Below are positions 1,355 through 30,854 of a stretch of 64,000 bases of DNA, one piece after another; within the stretch, counting starts at the first letter, position 1, and each line of letters opens with the position of its first letter. A model generated the notes under the pieces. It did not search any database. It was not told where the DNA came from and saw only the letters and a program-made list of their open reading frames with translations. Made by a program: the position numbers and the translations under genes. The DNA is from Flavobacteriales bacterium (GTDB lineage: Bacteria; Bacteroidota; Bacteroidia; Flavobacteriales_D; Sanyastnellaceae): the NCBI GenBank assembly GCA_002862785.1, contig PKDZ01000073.1, positions 1 to 64,000 of the forward strand, in the 5' to 3' direction.

Positions 1355-3253
1355 ATGGGCGCACTCGCCGCATTGAACCCCTATCTGTGGAAGTACCGCG
1401 GACGACTCTTCCTCGGGTTCGTCTTCGTCTTCCTGACCAATGCGTTTGCTGTCTTCGCCCCGGTGGTCATCGGGGAAGGGGTCAATGCGCTGCAAGACGC
1501 CTACACCCGATTCCTGCTCCCCCTCTCGGAAGGCACCCCGGCCACCGACGTGTTCCGGAATGCCTCCCTTCCCCTCCCCCCAACCCTATCCCGCCTTGCG
1601 GAGTGGTTGTCCTTCGACCCGTCCGGTGTCAGCGACCCGACCAGCCGAGAAGAGGTCATTCACGCCGTCGGCCTCATCGCCGGACTGCAGGCCCTTCTTT
1701 ACCTCGTCGCCTACCTCTTGAAGGGCGTCTTTTCGTTCATGACCCGGCAAACGATCATCGTGATGAGCCGCCTGATCGAATACGACCTGAAGGCCGCCAT
1801 CTACGACCACTACCAGTGCCTGCCGCTCTCCTTCTACAAGGTCAACGCCACCGGAGACTTGATGAACCGGATTTCCGAGGATGTCTCCAAGGTGCGGATG
1901 TACCTCGGGCCCGCCGTGATGTACGGATTGACCCTGGTGACGATGATGGCCCTGACCGTTGGCGTGATGGTCCGCATCGACGCCACGTTGACCCTGTGGT
2001 CGCTGGCGCCCCTGCCGTTCATGAGTGTCTCGGTCTACTTCGTGAGCGCCCGCATCCACCAAAAGAGCGATGCGGTCCAGGCTCAGCAGAGCCTGCTCAG
2101 CGCCATGGTGCAGCAGGCCTTCTCCGGCATCCGCGTGCTCGTCGCCCACCGGCGCGAGGCGCGCGCGGAGGAGCGCTTCGCCAACGAAGCCGACCTCTAC
2201 AAGACGCGCACGCTGGACCTCGTGAAGGTCGACGCGCTCTTCATGCCCATCATCGTCATGCTGGTCGGCCTGAGCACCATTCTCACCATCTACGTGGGCG
2301 GACTCCGGGTCCTCTCCGGCGACCTTGAGCTCGGCCACATTTTCCAGTTCGTCTTCTATGTCAACCTGCTCACCTGGCCGTTCGCCTCGATTGGGTGGGT
2401 GACCTCGCTGGTGCAGAAGGCCTCGGCAAGCCAGGCGAGAATCAATGCCTTCCTCGATGTGGAACCCGACATTTCCAGCCCGGCCTCACCGAAGGAATCC
2501 AGAAACATCCGGGGACACATTGAATTCAGGGGTGTCGGCCTGACCTATCCCGACTCGGGCATCCTCGCACTGGACGGGGTGGATTTCACCCTCGAACCCG
2601 GACAGACTCTCGCTGTGATCGGACGGACAGGCAGTGGAAAGAGTACGCTCGCCCAACTCGTCGCGCGCCTCTATGACCCGACCGAAGGCCACGTGCTCGT
2701 AGACGGCGTTGACCTCAGGGAGCGTGACCTTCACGGACTGCGCGGGGCCATCGGCTATGTCCCCCAGGATGTGTTCCTCTTTTCGGACACCATTCGAGCC
2801 AACATCGGATTTGGCGTCGACGATGCGGAGGACGCGGTCATCGAGCAAGCGGCGCGCGATGCGGATGTCCACGACAACATCAACGGATTCCCCGAGGGGT
2901 ACGCCACCCTCCTGGGTGAGCGGGGTGTCAACCTGAGTGGAGGCCAGAAGCAGCGTGTCTCCATTGCCCGGGCCATTCTCAAGCGGCCGCGCATCCTCAT
3001 CTTCGACGACTGTCTGTCTGCGGTGGACACGGAGACCGAAGCCACCATCCTCGGCAACCTCCGGCGCATCATGGAAGGCCGGACCTCCATCCTGATTTCT
3101 CACCGCGTTTCAACGGTGCGGTCCGCCGACCTCATCCTCGTCCTGGACCAGGGCCGGGTTGTGGAACGGGGACGGCATGATGAGCTCATCGAACGCGACG
3201 GTCTGTATGCCGAGCTTCACCGGAAGCAGCTCCGTTCTTCCGAAGAGAAATGA
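1355..3253 (+). CDS. ABC-type exporter, fused permease and ATPase
   Basis: 632 residues with an N-terminal type I exporter membrane domain (about six helices, residues 15-330) and a C-terminal nucleotide-binding domain. Visible motifs are Walker A (GRTGSGKST, near residue 423), the signature LSGGQKQR (near 527), Walker B (ILIFDD, near 548) and the H-loop ISHR (near 582). The catalytic glutamate that normally follows Walker B is an aspartate (IFDDCLSAVD), as in degenerate sites of some heterodimeric exporters. A long loop (residues 45-100) lies between the first two helices. The product belongs to the MsbA/BmrA/MdlB-like group that exports lipids, drugs or peptides across the inner membrane; the substrate is unknown. 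The start is supported by the -7 element 5 nt upstream. Confidence 0.9.
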   Translation: MGALAALNPYLWKYRGRLFLGFVFVFLTNAFAVFAPVVIGEGVNALQDAYTRFLLPLSEGTPATDVFRNASLPLPPTLSRLAEWLSFDPSGVSDPTSREEVIHAVGLIAGLQALLYLVAYLLKGVFSFMTRQTIIVMSRLIEYDLKAAIYDHYQCLPLSFYKVNATGDLMNRISEDVSKVRMYLGPAVMYGLTLVTMMALTVGVMVRIDATLTLWSLAPLPFMSVSVYFVSARIHQKSDAVQAQQSLLSAMVQQAFSGIRVLVAHRREARAEERFANEADLYKTRTLDLVKVDALFMPIIVMLVGLSTILTIYVGGLRVLSGDLELGHIFQFVFYVNLLTWPFASIGWVTSLVQKASASQARINAFLDVEPDISSPASPKESRNIRGHIEFRGVGLTYPDSGILALDGVDFTLEPGQTLAVIGRTGSGKSTLAQLVARLYDPTEGHVLVDGVDLRERDLHGLRGAIGYVPQDVFLFSDTIRANIGFGVDDAEDAVIEQAARDADVHDNINGFPEGYATLLGERGVNLSGGQKQRVSIARAILKRPRILIFDDCLSAVDTETEATILGNLRRIMEGRTSILISHRVSTVRSADLILVLDQGRVVERGRHDELIERDGLYAELHRKQLRSSEEK

Positions 3254-25979: not shown

Positions 25980-27125
25980 TCAGACCGCCAGCTTGGTGCG
26001 TTCTCCCTTCAGGGCCTCTCGGGTCATCGCAAATCGGGACACGTCGAATTCGGGCTGGACACCCAGGGCCATCTGGGCGAGCAGGCGGCCGATGAGCGGA
26101 CCGAACTTGAAGCCGTGCCCGCTAAACCCCGCGCCGACAATGAGCCCGTCCGGAGTGCGGTCGAGGATGAAGTCCCGGTCCGCGGTGCCACTGTAGAAGC
26201 AGACGTATTCCCAATCGATGCGGGCCTCAGCGAGCTCCGGCAGGTGGGCCGCCAAAAAGGCCCGGGCCTCTTGTTTGAAGTCCTCACTGACCTTGCGGTC
26301 GTCGCCGTCGGGATGACCGGCGGGACCGGGATGGTGGTTGGCCACCTTGATGCGGCCGTCCTTCACTGTGGGGATGGCGTAGAATCCACTGCCGAGGTCG
26401 CTGAAAACCGGCAGGCGGTGGAGCCTCTCCCCGAGGGTGGAGGCGTCGAAATAGACCAGCTGCTGGCGCGTGACCTCCATGGGCACATTGACCCAACGGC
26501 GGGTCCACGCCCCCGTGGTCACGACCACCTGGTCAAATTCAGCCCAGCCTTGGGCGCACCGGACGGCCTTGGACTGCACCTCGAGGGCTTCCCTCCGCCA
26601 TTCCACCCCTTCATTGCCCAGCCACGCGGCCAAGCCCTGCAGGATGACCTCCGGATCGAGCACGCCGCCGAGCCGGTCCACTGTGGCCTGGCCGACCTCG
26701 AACCCCGGCCATTCTTCGGCTACGCGGCCCCGCCCGAGGCGGTCCGCCCGGAGACCCATGTCGCGCATCGTGCGCCAGCTCTCCAACGCGTGCCGGTCCC
26801 CCGGCTGCTCGACAAGGAGCTTGCCCGTTTCGTGGAGCAAAGGCCGCCCGAGCTGGACGGACCACTCCGCCCAAAGGCGCCGGGCCCGAACCGCCATGGA
26901 CACGAAGCCCTCGTCCATTCCGTAGTGGACGCGGAAACTGCGACCGGTGTCCACTGAGGCGCCGGGTCCAGTCCCCATCGGATGGGGATCATAGAGGGTC
27001 ACGTGGGCCCCGGCCCGGATCAGGTTCGCCGCCGTGAAGCCGCCCATGATGCCTCCGCCCACGACCGCCACACGACGGACACCGGAGGATGAGACCTGTC
27101 TGAGAAGGTGAGGATGGCCGGTCAT
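25980..27125 (-). CDS. FAD-dependent amine oxidase of the sarcosine/N-methyltryptophan/pipecolate oxidase group
   Basis: 381 residues. The dinucleotide-binding motif VAVVGGGIMGGFTAANLIRA lies near the N-terminus. CFYSGTADRDFILD (about residues 312-325) matches the region of monomeric sarcosine oxidases that carries the covalent 8-alpha-S-cysteinyl-FAD cysteine. GFSGHGFKFGPLIG is the conserved C-terminal flavin contact. The enzyme should oxidise a secondary amine or cyclic imino acid with O2, giving H2O2. The substrate is not known. Its ATG overlaps the stop of the ATP-grasp gene (ATGA), so the two form one operon behind the cysteine-rich leader at 28199-28270. Confidence 0.87.
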   Translation of the reverse strand: MTGHPHLLRQVSSSGVRRVAVVGGGIMGGFTAANLIRAGAHVTLYDPHPMGTGPGASVDTGRSFRVHYGMDEGFVSMAVRARRLWAEWSVQLGRPLLHETGKLLVEQPGDRHALESWRTMRDMGLRADRLGRGRVAEEWPGFEVGQATVDRLGGVLDPEVILQGLAAWLGNEGVEWRREALEVQSKAVRCAQGWAEFDQVVVTTGAWTRRWVNVPMEVTRQQLVYFDASTLGERLHRLPVFSDLGSGFYAIPTVKDGRIKVANHHPGPAGHPDGDDRKVSEDFKQEARAFLAAHLPELAEARIDWEYVCFYSGTADRDFILDRTPDGLIVGAGFSGHGFKFGPLIGRLLAQMALGVQPEFDVSRFAMTREALKGERTKLAV

Positions 27126-28117
27126 GACGATGCGAGGTGTTGGCGGTTGACGGGCACCTTGGCGAGCTCCGCACCGAGGAAGTCGGCGATGGCGCGCATG
27201 CCCTGGCGCTCGTTGCCCAGACGGGCTTCGGCCTCCGCATTGTAATTGGTGTTGATGTTGACGTCGTAGAAATGGAGCCTTCCCTCGGCATCGGGTGACG
27301 CCTCCATCGCCGCGACTTCCATACCGGAATCGGCAAGGAACGCGAGGCACCGGTCCACATCGGCGGGTTCATGGTTGGCAAGCACCTCAAACTTGGCGCG
27401 TCCATCGGCTGGGCAGAACGTACTGCCCACCTGGCAGGCATCGGACGGACACAGGTCAAAGCCGCCGCCCGTGTCGATACTGACGGTGTAGTAATGCCGC
27501 CCTCCGATGAATTCGAGCCGCAGGACCCGACCGTCCGCTGGCTTGGCGTAATCCTGAAGGACCACCGTACCGTCGAGGGTGTAGTCGCCAAACGACGTCG
27601 CCACACGATCGACATCCGATGCGTTGCGCACGAGGGTCACGCCGGTGCCCTTGCCGCCCCGGTTGGGCTTGACGATGAAGGGCCGGTCCCACCGGGAAGC
27701 CGCCCGACGGAAGGCGTCTGCCCCTGTGGCCGCAACGGTGCGCGGGGTCGACAGACCATGGTCGCGCAGGGCGATCATTTGTTCGACCTTGCTCACCTCC
27801 AGCGCGGTCGCCTTGCGGTTGTTGACCACCCGACGACCGTGGGATTCGAGCCAGGCCATCACGCCCCGCGTCGCCTCCCACGCGAACCGGTGGTCCCGCG
27901 TGTGGCTGCTGGCGCTCATGCGATTGTAGAAGACGCCCTCCGGCGGCACCGAGGACAGGTCGATCTCGGCATCGTCGATGAACCACTCCCGATAGGAAAG
28001 GCCCCGGAGCTCGAGTTGGGCGATGAGGGGTTCCACCCACACGCTGTTTTCGTGGAGGATGTGGATGGCCGGTCGTGTATCGAGAGAAGCGGAGAGCGGG
28101 GAAAAGGGGGAAATCAT
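27122..28117 (-). CDS. RimK-like ATP-grasp ligase
   Basis: 331 residues. An N-terminal pre-ATP-grasp region (AIHILHENSVWVEPLIAQLE, FYNRMSASSHTRDH) is followed by the ATP-grasp fold: RPFIVKPNRGGKGTGVTLV binds ATP phosphates and HFYDVNINTNYNAEAEARLG holds the metal ligands. Such enzymes join a carboxylate to an amine through an acyl phosphate (RimK, glutathione synthetase and relatives). The substrates are unknown. It is the first gene after the leader peptide and terminator and is coupled to the FAD oxidase. TTG at 28123 is an alternative start, but ATG 28117 is preferred. Confidence 0.85.
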   Translation of the reverse strand: MISPFSPLSASLDTRPAIHILHENSVWVEPLIAQLELRGLSYREWFIDDAEIDLSSVPPEGVFYNRMSASSHTRDHRFAWEATRGVMAWLESHGRRVVNNRKATALEVSKVEQMIALRDHGLSTPRTVAATGADAFRRAASRWDRPFIVKPNRGGKGTGVTLVRNASDVDRVATSFGDYTLDGTVVLQDYAKPADGRVLRLEFIGGRHYYTVSIDTGGGFDLCPSDACQVGSTFCPADGRAKFEVLANHEPADVDRCLAFLADSGMEVAAMEASPDAEGRLHFYDVNINTNYNAEAEARLGNERQGMRAIADFLGAELAKVPVNRQHLASS

Positions 28118-28140: not shown

Positions 28141-28165
28141 AAAAAGCCCGGCTGGAAGGCCGGGC
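28141..28165 (-). terminator. Intrinsic terminator acting as attenuator
   Basis: On the minus strand GCCCGGC (28165-28159), a 6-nt loop and GCCGGGC (28152-28146) form a perfect 7-bp GC stem followed by TTTTT (28145-28141). It lies 33 nt after the leader-peptide stop and 23 nt before the ATP-grasp start, in the same orientation. It therefore sits inside the 5' leader rather than at an operon end. Confidence 0.85.
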
Positions 28166-28198
28166 GCAATACGATCAAGGAGAATGTTTCAATGGAAA

Positions 28199-28270
28199 TC
28201 AGCCAACATGACGGTACCGTGCCCGGGGAGCCGGACAACAGAAACAACAACATGTGGCGAACGCATTCAT
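28199..28270 (-). CDS. Cysteine-rich attenuator leader peptide
   Basis: A 23-codon ORF running from ATG (28270) to TGA (28199). Codons 7-12 read TGT TGT TGT TTC TGT TGT, giving CCCFCC. The last Cys codon begins the 5' arm of hairpin 1 (TGTCCGG, 28237-28231), which pairs with CCGGGCA (28226-28220). CCGGGC can instead pair with GCCCGG (28165-28160), the 5' arm of the terminator. A ribosome stalled on Cys codons would cover the first arm and favour the antiterminator pairing. A ribosome that reaches the stop would cover the second segment and let the terminator form. This is the classical amino-acid attenuation layout. The peptide is not expected to have a function of its own. Confidence 0.8.
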   Translation of the reverse strand: MNAFATCCCFCCPAPRARYRHVG

Positions 28271-28274
28271 ACCT

Positions 28275-28307
28275 GTAATATAGGAATAAAATCGGGTGAT
28301 ATCAAAA
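28275..28307 (-). promoter_or_regulatory. Promoter of the leader peptide/ATP-grasp/FAD oxidase operon
   Basis: TTTTG (28307-28303), 20 nt, then TATATTAC (28282-28275) fits the Bacteroidota -33/-7 architecture, with the last two bases of the -7 element off consensus. It ends 4 nt before the leader ATG and begins 11 nt after the priA stop, in locally AT-rich DNA. Confidence 0.6.
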
Positions 28308-28317
28308 TTTGACCTTG

Positions 28318-30768
28318 TCAATAAGGGTCTACATCGACAATGACCCGAATGGACTTATACTCCTCCACTGACCGGAAGGCCTCGATGTCCTCCCTCATCA
28401 AGGCCTTCACCTCACCGGGTGACGCCTCCCGCTCAAACTTCAGCAGGATGTGCCGGTGGTACTGGTCGTTGATGCGCGGAATCTGCGGTTCCTCGGGCCC
28501 GACCACCCTTCCACCGAACCGGCTACGCAGGCGACCAGCGAGGGCCGAAGCCCCATGGCGCACCTTGTGGGGATCACGATGGCGCAACACCAAGCGGATG
28601 AGCCTGACGACCGGCGGATACTGAAAGGTGTGCCGCTCCTGCATCTCGGCCTTGGCCATGGAGACCGCATCGTGGCGGACCACATGCGTGAACACCCAGT
28701 GCTCGGGATCGAAGGTCTGTATCAAGACGCGGCCCTGGTCCTCCCTCCTTCCGGCTCGGCCCGCCACCTGCGTCAGCAACTGGAAGGTCCGTTCGAGCGC
28801 TCGGAAATCCGGATGGTGCAGCATCCGGTCGGCCTGCAAGATGCCGACCAGGCCCACGTGCTCGAAATCGAGTCCCTTGGTGACCATCTGGGTCCCGACC
28901 AGCACCTGGACTTCGCCAGTCTCGAACGCCTGAATGATCCGCTCGTGTCCCGTCCGGGTGCGTGTCGTGTCGAGGTCCATCCGCGCCGCCTTGACTTGCG
29001 GAAAATGGGTGGCGATTTCTTCCTCGATGCGCTCGGTGCCAATGCCCTTGGACTCCACCTCCTCACTTCCGCACCGGGGGCAGATCCGCGGTTCCGACTC
29101 CCGGTAGCCACAGTAGTGACAGTGCAGGTCCTTGAGGTATTTGTGGTAGGTCAAGGACACATCACACCGCGCACATTCTGGAACCCAGCCGCAGGTCCGG
29201 CATTGATGCACGGGGGCGTATCCGCGCCGGTTCTGGAACAGGATGACCTGGCGTCCGGCCTCCAGCGTCTCTCCGATGGCCTCGAGGAGGGTCCGGCTGA
29301 AGTGCCCTTCCATCCGGCGTTGCTTGTGGGCCTTTCGCAAATCCACCAGCTCAACGGTTGGCAGCGAGGTTCCACCAAAGCGTTCCTTGAGCGGCACAAA
29401 CACCGCCCGGTCCTGGCCCACGGCCCAGCGGGCTTCAAGTGACGGCGTGGCCGAGCCGAGGAGCACCTGCGCTCCATGAAGGTGACCGAGCATCGCCGCT
29501 GCATCCCGGGCCTGATAGCGAGGGGCCGGATCCTGTTGCTTGTAGCTGGGGTCGTGCTCCTCATCCACAACGATGAGCCCGAGGTTGCGGAACGGAAGAA
29601 ATACAGCGCTCCTCGCCCCAACGAGCAGGCGCCCCTTGCCCTTTTCCTCGGCCACGCGGCGGAAGGTGGTGGTGCGCTCCCGGGGCGTAAATCGGCTGTG
29701 GTAGACCTCGAGCCGGTCTCCGAAGAAGCGACGAAGCCGAACGATCAACTGGGTGGTCAAGGCAATCTCCGGCACGAGGAAAAGGGCGTCGCGTCCGGAG
29801 GTCAATGCGTCGTGGATGAGGTGCGTGTACACCTCGGTCTTCCCAGAACCAGTGACCCCTTCGAGGAGGACCAGCCCCTTCTCCTCCATGCCCAGCCTGA
29901 TGGCGTCGAGGGCGGTCTGCTGCGCCGGGCTCAAGGCCGCGAGGGGAAGCTCCTTCGACTCGCTCCCGCTCATCCAGGGATCCTGCTTGAACAGGAACAC
30001 CAATCCCTTTTCAACCAGCCGTTTAAAGAGGGCGCCATCGAGATCGCGTCGGCGAACCAGTTCCGCCACTGGAACCCCTGTGGCCTTGCGGTCTTCGTCG
30101 AGCAGGGCCATCATCGCCCGCGATTGGGCAGGCGCCCGGGCATCCAATGCATCCAGCTGATCTCCGAGCCAACCCTCATCGGCCACCGCCCGCTCCGAGA
30201 GCCGCACCATGGACACGACCTTTCGACCGGGACCGCTCTTCATCTCCTCATTGGACAGAATCCACCCCGTTTCGACCAGCCTGCGGAGGACGGGCGCCGG
30301 GTCTTTGACACCCAGCAGATCGCCGACCTCACGGAAGGTCATCGCCCCCCTCAACCGAAGGGCCTCCACCACCTGGAATTCCCGGTCCTCCAGTCCGGAG
30401 TCGTCGCGTTCCCCGGCGTCCGGTGCCGGCTGGAGCTTGGTTTCGCTCGCGAGTCGCATCCCCGCCGGCAGGGCGGCAAGGGCCACCTCTCCTGGAGAAC
30501 AACAATAATGTCCCGCCATCCAATCCCAGAAGCGAAGCGTCGTCTCAGAGAGAATGGGCTCGGCATCCAACAGGCTCACGAAGGCCTCGGTGCGGTGACC
30601 CGGAGCTTGCCCGTGCACGCCACGGACGACAGCCGTGTGCAGCCGCTTTCCGCGGAGCGGAACGATGACCCGGCTTCCCACTTCCACACGACCGATCTGC
30701 TCCGGCGGAACGGAATAAGTCAGCAGCCCGGGGAGCGCGAGGGGAAGGATGACGTCGACGTACTGCAC
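28318..30768 (-). CDS. priA: Primosomal replication restart helicase PriA
   Basis: 816 residues from the GTG at 30768. The N-terminal 3'BD domain (QYVDVILPLALPGLLTYSVP) recognises fork ends. Helicase motifs include Walker A GVTGSGKTEVY, Walker B VVDEEHD and GSATPSLEA. Two zinc-binding groups of four cysteines follow (CRTCGWVPECARC and CHYCGYRESEPRICPRCG). PriA reloads the replisome at stalled forks. A longer form from TTG 30816 is possible, but the -7 element TACTTTCG at 30782-30775 lies within that extension and ends 6 nt before the GTG, which favours the shorter start. Confidence 0.93.
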   Translation of the reverse strand: MQYVDVILPLALPGLLTYSVPPEQIGRVEVGSRVIVPLRGKRLHTAVVRGVHGQAPGHRTEAFVSLLDAEPILSETTLRFWDWMAGHYCCSPGEVALAALPAGMRLASETKLQPAPDAGERDDSGLEDREFQVVEALRLRGAMTFREVGDLLGVKDPAPVLRRLVETGWILSNEEMKSGPGRKVVSMVRLSERAVADEGWLGDQLDALDARAPAQSRAMMALLDEDRKATGVPVAELVRRRDLDGALFKRLVEKGLVFLFKQDPWMSGSESKELPLAALSPAQQTALDAIRLGMEEKGLVLLEGVTGSGKTEVYTHLIHDALTSGRDALFLVPEIALTTQLIVRLRRFFGDRLEVYHSRFTPRERTTTFRRVAEEKGKGRLLVGARSAVFLPFRNLGLIVVDEEHDPSYKQQDPAPRYQARDAAAMLGHLHGAQVLLGSATPSLEARWAVGQDRAVFVPLKERFGGTSLPTVELVDLRKAHKQRRMEGHFSRTLLEAIGETLEAGRQVILFQNRRGYAPVHQCRTCGWVPECARCDVSLTYHKYLKDLHCHYCGYRESEPRICPRCGSEEVESKGIGTERIEEEIATHFPQVKAARMDLDTTRTRTGHERIIQAFETGEVQVLVGTQMVTKGLDFEHVGLVGILQADRMLHHPDFRALERTFQLLTQVAGRAGRREDQGRVLIQTFDPEHWVFTHVVRHDAVSMAKAEMQERHTFQYPPVVRLIRLVLRHRDPHKVRHGASALAGRLRSRFGGRVVGPEEPQIPRINDQYHRHILLKFEREASPGEVKALMREDIEAFRSVEEYKSIRVIVDVDPY

Positions 30769-30774
30769 GAGAAG

Positions 30775-30782
30775 CGAAAGTA
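30775..30782 (-). promoter_or_regulatory. -7 promoter element (TACTTTCG) for priA
   Basis: One mismatch to TAnnTTTG, ending 6 nt before the GTG start. A TTG 18 nt upstream could be the -33 box. Confidence 0.5.
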
Positions 30783-30854
30783 CCTTAGTCGAGTTCCCTG
30801 CAAGGCCATCGGTCAACCCGTGAACCCCGTGGACACATTTCCGGTTGTCTTCCC

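Follow-up and report, generated by a model that had tools for sequence, protein, structure and literature searches.

A probable cysteine-responsive leader-peptide attenuator upstream of an ATP-grasp/FAD-oxidase operon in a Flavobacteriales bacterium

The region between priA and a two-gene operon in the genome of a Flavobacteriales bacterium raises the question of whether a very short, cysteine-rich open reading frame (ORF) can switch transcription of the genes behind it. The window, i.e. the whole 64,000-nucleotide stretch of DNA analysed here (contig PKDZ01000073.1), carries on its minus strand a leader ORF with the cysteine cluster CCCFCC, an intrinsic terminator, and then genes for a predicted ATP-grasp ligase and an FAD-dependent oxidase. 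A first-pass annotation, made from the sequence alone, had read this arrangement as a cysteine-responsive transcription attenuator. The locus was therefore examined for its parts, their conservation and covariation in related genomes, the modelled effect of a ribosome on its folding, and the regulatory elements found before homologous genes in other bacteria.

Structure of the leader region

The promoter, CCCFCC leader, 1:2 hairpin and terminator named in the first-pass annotation were all present on the minus strand between 28306 and 28141 (Table 1). The proposed TTTTG-N20-box promoter was located as TTTG, N20 and TATATTAC. The 23-codon ORF indeed has five Cys codons in six positions, the first arm of the hairpin TGTCCGG/CCGGGCA begins within the last Cys codon, and the perfect 7-bp terminator (GCCCGGC-N6-GCCGGGC) is followed by T5. 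Two other claims needed correction. The suggested competing pairing between CCGGGC and GCCCGG exists, but it is far too short: the real antiterminator comprises 16 bp in three blocks, in which CCGGGC, CGGTAC and GTCA pair with GCCCGG, GTATTG and TGAT, and its calculated energy is -24.0 kcal/mol against -16.1 kcal/mol for the terminator hairpin. The end of segment 3 doubles as the 5' arm of the terminator. The stop codon of the leader does fall between segments 2 and 3, but this is not the classical trp layout. In trpL, the stop codon sits between segments 1 and 2; here segment 2 is inside the ORF.

Table 1. Features of the leader region and its neighbouring genes in the window
Feature	Position	Strand	Remark
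Putative promoter: -33 element TTTG (28306-28303), N20, -7 element TATATTAC (28282-28275)	28275..28306	-	sequence
Leader ORF MNAFATCCCFCCPAPRARYRHVG and stop codon, 23 codons	28199..28270	-	Cys cluster kept in 14/14 relatives, other residues vary
Regulatory codons TGT TGT TGT TTC TGT TGT (CCCFCC)	28235..28252	-	Cys codons 28252-28244 and 28240-28235
Segment 1, TGTCCGG, starting in the last Cys codon	28231..28237	-	pairs with CCGGGCA 28226-28220
Segment 2, CCGGGC A CGGTAC C GTCA, 5' strand of the antiterminator, within the ORF	28209..28226	-	
Segment 3, TGAT C GTATTG C GCCCGG, 3' strand of the antiterminator	28160..28177	-	
Intrinsic terminator: GCCCGGC (28165-28159), loop CTTCCA, GCCGGGC (28152-28146), T5 (28145-28141)	28141..28165	-	14/14 relatives
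First structural gene: predicted RimK/LysX/DcsG-like ATP-grasp carboxylate-amine ligase	27122..28117	-	LCPxxxC and FCP motifs invariant
Second structural gene: FAD-dependent DAO-family oxidase (monomeric sarcosine oxidase / N-methyl-tryptophan oxidase type)	25980..27125	-	
priA, upstream neighbour outside the switch	28318..30816	-	

Bacteroidota promoters have the consensus TTG/TTTG-N~20-TAnnTTTG. At this locus, 4 nt separate the TATATTAC box from the start of the leader ORF, and a -7-like box lies exactly 4 or 7 nt 5' of the uORF start in all 14 sequences compared. Given this spacing and the usual position of the transcription start site in Bacteroidota, the leader ORF is probably leaderless or preceded by a 5'UTR of a few nucleotides. 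All five clustered Cys codons of the window's leader are TGT, and nearby genes favour TGC (TGC:TGT 24:11); in the relatives' leaders, the TGT:TGC ratio is 65:18. The 146-nt leader folds more stably than its dinucleotide shuffles (z-score -2.36). No Rfam model, including the T-box and SAM riboswitch models, reached its gathering score at the locus, and the hits with E<=1 were weak and at chance level.

The structural genes share an ATGA overlap (27125-27122). The first product has a predicted ATP-grasp ligase fold (pLDDT 83) with an invariant Cys in LCPxxxC. Its nearest matches in a fold search were DcsG, LysX/ArgX, PsnB, RimK and Ddl, all only 13-19% identical; they point to the ATP-grasp ligase fold in general and to no particular substrate. 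The best hits of a profile search, the RimK-family and LysX models, were all under the cut-off (TIGR04187 gave 30 bits against the 350 required), and a sequence search of the PDB with this protein returned weak hits only. The second product belongs to the DAO-family oxidases, close to monomeric sarcosine oxidase. Speculatively, a ligase and an amine oxidase of this kind might serve to activate an organosulfur amine and to oxidise it, by analogy with gamma-glutamylation pathways.

Conservation, covariation and ribosome geometry

The ATP-grasp gene was found in 17 genomes of the window's genus and family, in 14 of which the upstream DNA could be judged; L016 and L017 (47-48% identical) and L004 (63 nt of upstream sequence only) were kept apart. 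A uORF with a cluster of 4-6 Cys is present in all 14, mostly straight after priA. Its other residues vary, as in MNGNLSFCCCCCPAHSGRLPSCKRMC, MMRIALCCCCCCPAPPGRLPSCTGED, MHDTCCIICCCCPTSSGKLSSCPGMI and MFITNTCTCCCCLAFRKPGRKACKMK, each with a terminator behind it. An ORF with at least four Cys in six codons occurs in about 0.2% of shuffled 400-nt upstream regions, as against 12 of 12 close relatives. The 7-bp terminator, with at least T5, lies between leader and gene at the window locus and in its 13 close relatives, and in each of the 13 close relatives with genome contigs the ATP-grasp gene has the FAD-oxidase gene next to it.

The RNA of segment 2 (CCGGGCA..GTCATG) is kept in these sequences, but a one-base change in length between it and the Cys cluster shifts its reading frame between clades. 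Segment 2 is read as PAPRARYRHV in the window, L002 and L003, and as PAxxGRLPSC in L005-L013. As judged from the alignment, it is the RNA and not the peptide that is conserved at segment 2; what is kept of the Cys cluster is its codons. The reading of an unchanged RNA in different frames argues against a functional peptide or a precursor of a ribosomally synthesized and post-translationally modified peptide (RiPP).

Covariation supports the long antiterminator. Pairs were counted in 12 aligned relatives; L014 and L015 were omitted from these counts because MAFFT misaligned their segment 2, and were retained when sequences were folded one by one. Over the first 11 positions of the antiterminator, 87.8% of cells form standard pairs. 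Ten cells are changed on both sides (G-C/C-G, U-A/G-U/G-C). This result was reached in 0 of 500 shuffles, and sliding the register destroyed the pairing signal. Since related sequences inflate shuffles of this kind, a second test was added, in which the variable part of segment 2 was paired either with its own segment 3 (mean -8.6 kcal/mol) or with that of another species (-5.4 kcal/mol; permutation of random matchings, p=5e-5). Hairpin 1:2 is paired in 94% of cells, with its closing pair changing from G-C to A-U. The terminator arms are nearly invariant and so yield little covariation. The comparison of priA/ATP-grasp intergenic regions, which had been put forward as a check of the first-pass annotation, thus found the Cys cluster, the antiterminator and the terminator in 14 of 14 sequences, with covariation in the antiterminator.

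An extra hairpin brackets the leader stop codon, inside the antiterminator, in several of these genomes. It reads GGGAATG..CATTCCC in L007, L010 and L012, and GAGAATG..CATTCTC in L006. Across L006, L007, L010, L012 and L013 it appears to covary, and the window has a shorter version (28210-28180). Might this hairpin set the timing of ribosome release?

The effect of translation was modelled by folding the RNA made up to segment 4 with the ribosome as a 25-nt mask. The modelled probability that the core of segment 3 is paired with the leader was 0.97 when a Cys codon occupied the A-site, at the best position, and 0.12 when the ribosome lay over segment 2. It dropped below 0.6 at the first codon past the last clustered Cys in 13 of the 14 sequences. 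When no ribosome was present, the antiterminator mostly refolded at the modelled equilibrium (0.83 on average, 0.28 in the window itself), and it could still form when the ribosome stood at the stop codon (28201-28199), 3' of segment 2 (0.52 in the window). Because of this refolding, termination must rely on close coupling of ribosome and polymerase, or on hairpin 1:2 forming first as a kinetic trap. As the antiterminator re-forms with a ribosome at the stop codon, this codon is not placed as in trpL, where a ribosome at stop blocks segment 2; not every attenuator of this kind needs the trpL placement.

These features suggest the following mechanism. RNA polymerase would start at the leader ATG or within a few bases of it, giving leaderless or near-leaderless translation. 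With ample Cys-tRNA(Cys), the ribosome would pass the Cys cluster onto segment 2 and mask it; segment 3 could then pair with segment 4, and transcription would stop at T5. With Cys-tRNA scarce, the ribosome would halt on the Cys codons and cover segment 1; segment 2 would then capture segment 3 in the long antiterminator, and the ATP-grasp/FAD-oxidase operon would be transcribed. The molecule sensed is very probably Cys-tRNA(Cys). An operon that is on when Cys-tRNA is short would belong to a cysteine-starvation response, and its enzymes, whose link to cysteine is indirect, probably help the cell to obtain cysteine or reduced sulfur. The anatomy and its conservation are strong; the start site, the translation of the leader, the sensing of Cys-tRNA and the role of the enzymes are what we infer from sequence and folding models. 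On this basis, it is highly likely that the CCCFCC locus is a cysteine-responsive leader-peptide transcription attenuator.

Leaders upstream of the ATP-grasp gene in other bacteria

Homologues of the ATP-grasp protein in metagenome-assembled genomes (MAGs) of Saprospiraceae and other Bacteroidetes are 44-49% identical and have other gene neighbours, with neither priA nor the FAD gene. Five of seven such loci have Cys leaders unrelated to that of the window (MTIYTNPNNACCCCCCNDHCVI, MKLFTNSINTFCCCCCCCNDPNLN, MIILNGITQCCPCCTNAQGRDL, MIKNLYLHISVCCCCYSVILSNEWLV and one with CCLCCCCC), all of them followed by different T-run terminators. At L034, L041 and L047, the modelled pairing falls no more than a few codons away from the Cys cluster, and L031 and L033 show a partial pattern. 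Genes similar to cysE and cysK lie 1.7 kb downstream at L047. Cys leaders were also detected at 9 of 15 loci of family f36, from another class of the same phylum, which we take to be Salinibacter-like (e.g. MTAPSPAHCCCCPYTRA and MCCCRVPRSLV). Most of the unrelated leaders in these two sets have a terminator. The ATP-grasp gene stands without a Cys leader at L016, L017, L036, L079 and at least three of the Salinibacter-like loci.

Outside Bacteroidota, a Cys leader was found at one of 60 loci. In this case (L046, a Muproteobacteria MAG), a poly-Cys ORF, MSVVTCRCCCCCSMGDV..., lies about 100-190 nt before position 3001 and has no T-run terminator. A Cys-rich ORF at the Nitrospira locus L053 was treated as a chance occurrence. 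None of the genes that recur beside the ATP-grasp gene outside Bacteroidota was informative, and a search of 20 Proteobacteria, Acidobacteria and other ATP-grasp loci with Rfam models gave no match.

Other sulfur-related control elements precede the same gene family. In Clostridium punense (L039:1316-1553) and Oceanirhabdus (L070:1345-1582), a T-box (Rfam, 109 bits) leads a gene pair in which the ATP-grasp gene comes after a gene of the GltP/DctA symporter family. We read its specifier as UGC (GAA-G-UGC-C-CC) and its bulge, UGGAACC, as fitting the U73 discriminator of tRNA(Cys), so that the T-box appears to be of the Cys type; the GltP/DctA-like symporter may be a cystine transporter. At the Bacillus locus L088, a SAM riboswitch and a metQ-like gene are located upstream of the ATP-grasp gene. 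The first-pass reading of a cysteine attenuator thus gains support from the conservation in close relatives, from unrelated Cys-run leaders elsewhere and from the Clostridia T-box, all before the same gene.

A paralogue of the ATP-grasp protein (28-34% identical) occurs in family f9, presumably Hymenobacter-like. It has a SAM riboswitch at 18 of 18 tested loci, and a Cys mini-ORF, e.g. MACCCCCCPA, follows the SAM aptamer at 15 of 30 loci. This tandem possibly exerts control by two inputs, SAM and Cys-tRNA. The succession of SAM riboswitch and poly-Cys mini-ORF (MGCCCCCCLA and similar) was observed among L140-L169, e.g. at L168:945-1037. The start of the gene behind the paralogue at L129 resembles, in our reading, an SsuD/SfnG-type monooxygenase.

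Cys-run ORFs were also seen before genes other than those of the ATP-grasp family. In one Bacteroidota family, ORFs ending in 4-7 Cys (MFFLSHTCCCCCCC, MIVFNTYCCCCCC, MNAPRLLFCCCC) lie 50-66 nt upstream of the cysteinyl-tRNA synthetase gene cysS (L180, L200, L201). No T-run terminator was seen at L180. Most cysS genes have no such ORF, nor has the cysS of the window's genome. A search of that genome for a second Cys leader with the pattern TGYx4, which does not cover the window's own CCCFCC, returned 24 overlapping hits, none convincing. It is an even question whether poly-Cys leaders run a cysteine-starvation regulon across Bacteroidota, the Salinibacter-like family included, that would take in the ATP-grasp gene, cysS (in one family) and the Hymenobacter-like SAM tandem. 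If this is true, the tandem would place one operon under the joint control of SAM and Cys-tRNA.

Two further observations concern upstream ORFs. In a genus of the same class (L194, L196, L198), a conserved ORF, MSNNRNMFNLPKGRMHANMRMCCCCCCC with its stop codon (and variants), precedes a phytanoyl-CoA-dioxygenase-like gene by about 54 nt; L194 and L198 have no T-run terminator. At L193, the ORF MLGCCCCCCGSGYYRCLVKL... lies 47 nt before a gene for an outer-membrane-type protein with a carboxypeptidase-regulatory-like start, and a hairpin with a short T-run is located near the ORF end.

Alternative explanations and known systems

Could the terminator simply belong to priA, with the ORF arising by chance and the operon unregulated here? 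The distance from the end of priA to the leader ATG is 48 nt, and terminators after genes are common. However, a Cys cluster in 14 of 14 sequences against a chance rate of about 0.2%, the covariation of the leader, and the Cys leaders before the same gene at loci where priA is not a neighbour leave this explanation a negligible probability, and we regard it as refuted in practice. Ribosomes might alternatively act through Rho or on translation rather than through an intrinsic terminator, as has been proposed for mycobacterial poly-Cys ORFs, and the related Cys leaders of L180, L194, L198 and L046 do lack a T-run terminator. Such an action is very improbable at the present locus, where the 7-bp terminator and its T-run stand between leader and gene in the window and its 13 close relatives.

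The Cys cluster might also matter as peptide. Copper-responsive, Cys-containing leader peptides are known in Rhodobacter, and as many as seven cysteines in a row would bind metal; a nascent peptide that binds a thiophilic metal or is oxidised could arrest the ribosome and so report the metal or redox state. Control by a nascent exported protein has been described (PMC9973294). Several findings nevertheless make such sensing improbable. In 13 of 14 sequences, the geometric switch point coincides with the last clustered Cys codon, as expected for a hungry codon in the A-site, and the cluster under decoding would still be inside the exit tunnel. Moreover, the number and spacing of the Cys vary (CCCFCC, CCSCC, CCIICCCC, CCCCCC), the Clostridia place a T-box that reads tRNA(Cys) over the same gene, and the downstream genes are not metal genes. 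A last explanation takes the ORF as a RiPP precursor modified by the ATP-grasp ligase and the FAD oxidase, as in graspetides. A small Cys-rich ORF beside an ATP-grasp gene would fit, as would the presence of PsnB graspetide ligases among the fold matches, although the TIGR04187 match is far under its cut-off. Against it, a conserved terminator parts the ORF from the genes and the ORF overlaps the antiterminator; there is no conserved core peptide, the frame of segment 2 differing between clades; 59 of 60 ATP-grasp loci outside Bacteroidota have no such ORF; and similar Cys runs precede cysS. A precursor role is hence hardly credible, and cysteine-responsive attenuation is the reading retained here.

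The locus resembles the trp, his, leu, ilv and phe attenuators in its short ORF with a run of regulatory codons, its mutually exclusive 2:3 and 3:4 structures, and a 1:2 hairpin that begins in the regulatory codons. According to the model, a stall on these codons likewise frees segment 2 and moving on masks it. It differs in the Cys codons themselves, in having segment 2 within the ORF, 5' of the stop codon, and in the probably leaderless or near-leaderless ORF. The Cys T-box (RF00230), found in two Clostridia before the same ATP-grasp family, also senses tRNA(Cys), but binds the tRNA directly, without a leader peptide; the window has none.

Attenuation by Cys-rich uORFs, which the first-pass annotation had mentioned for mycobacteria, is documented in Actinobacteria, although in forms that lack terminators or act on translation. 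The mycobacterial poly-Cys leaderless ORFs are reported to be cysteine-responsive attenuators and to act on translation (Canestrari et al. 2020, doi 10.1111/mmi.14498, as cited in PMC9094748, PMC9031893 and PMC13236596). They share with the present locus a Cys run, a short, probably leaderless ORF and proposed Cys-tRNA sensing, and they precede sulfur-related genes; unlike them, the window has an intrinsic terminator and a covarying antiterminator, in another phylum, with other genes and no shared sequence. The candidate leader ORFs of actinobacterial cys and cbs operons (Seliverstov et al. 2005, PMC1262725) have Cys runs near the stop codon and, unlike the window, no conserved terminator hairpins. 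According to a 2010 survey, leader-peptide systems were known only from Proteobacteria and Actinobacteria until the Firmicutes case that the survey itself added (PMC2965389). In Bacteroidota, such attenuation has been inferred from signs of it ahead of amino-acid operons in Flavobacterium psychrophilum (PMC9723704) and from 5'UTR sORFs of Bacteroides thetaiotaomicron (PMC7366714); the main text of these two sources names no cysteine case. The earlier statement that no described case was known from Bacteroidota held in our literature searches, with subscription papers and supplements beyond reach; within the same limits, they found no described Cys attenuator with an intrinsic terminator in any group.

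Taken together, the mutually unrelated Cys leader, Cys T-box and SAM riboswitch would put members of the widespread ATP-grasp family, previously not tied to sulfur, under the control of sulfur amino acids. They provide a first functional handle on this family, whose members can now be tested as enzymes of cysteine or sulfur salvage. Leader-peptide attenuation is textbook knowledge, and the actinobacterial survey had the Cys runs without the other parts of an attenuator; the present locus would be a complete cysteine version, with all parts and their covariation, in a phylum that had offered mere hints.
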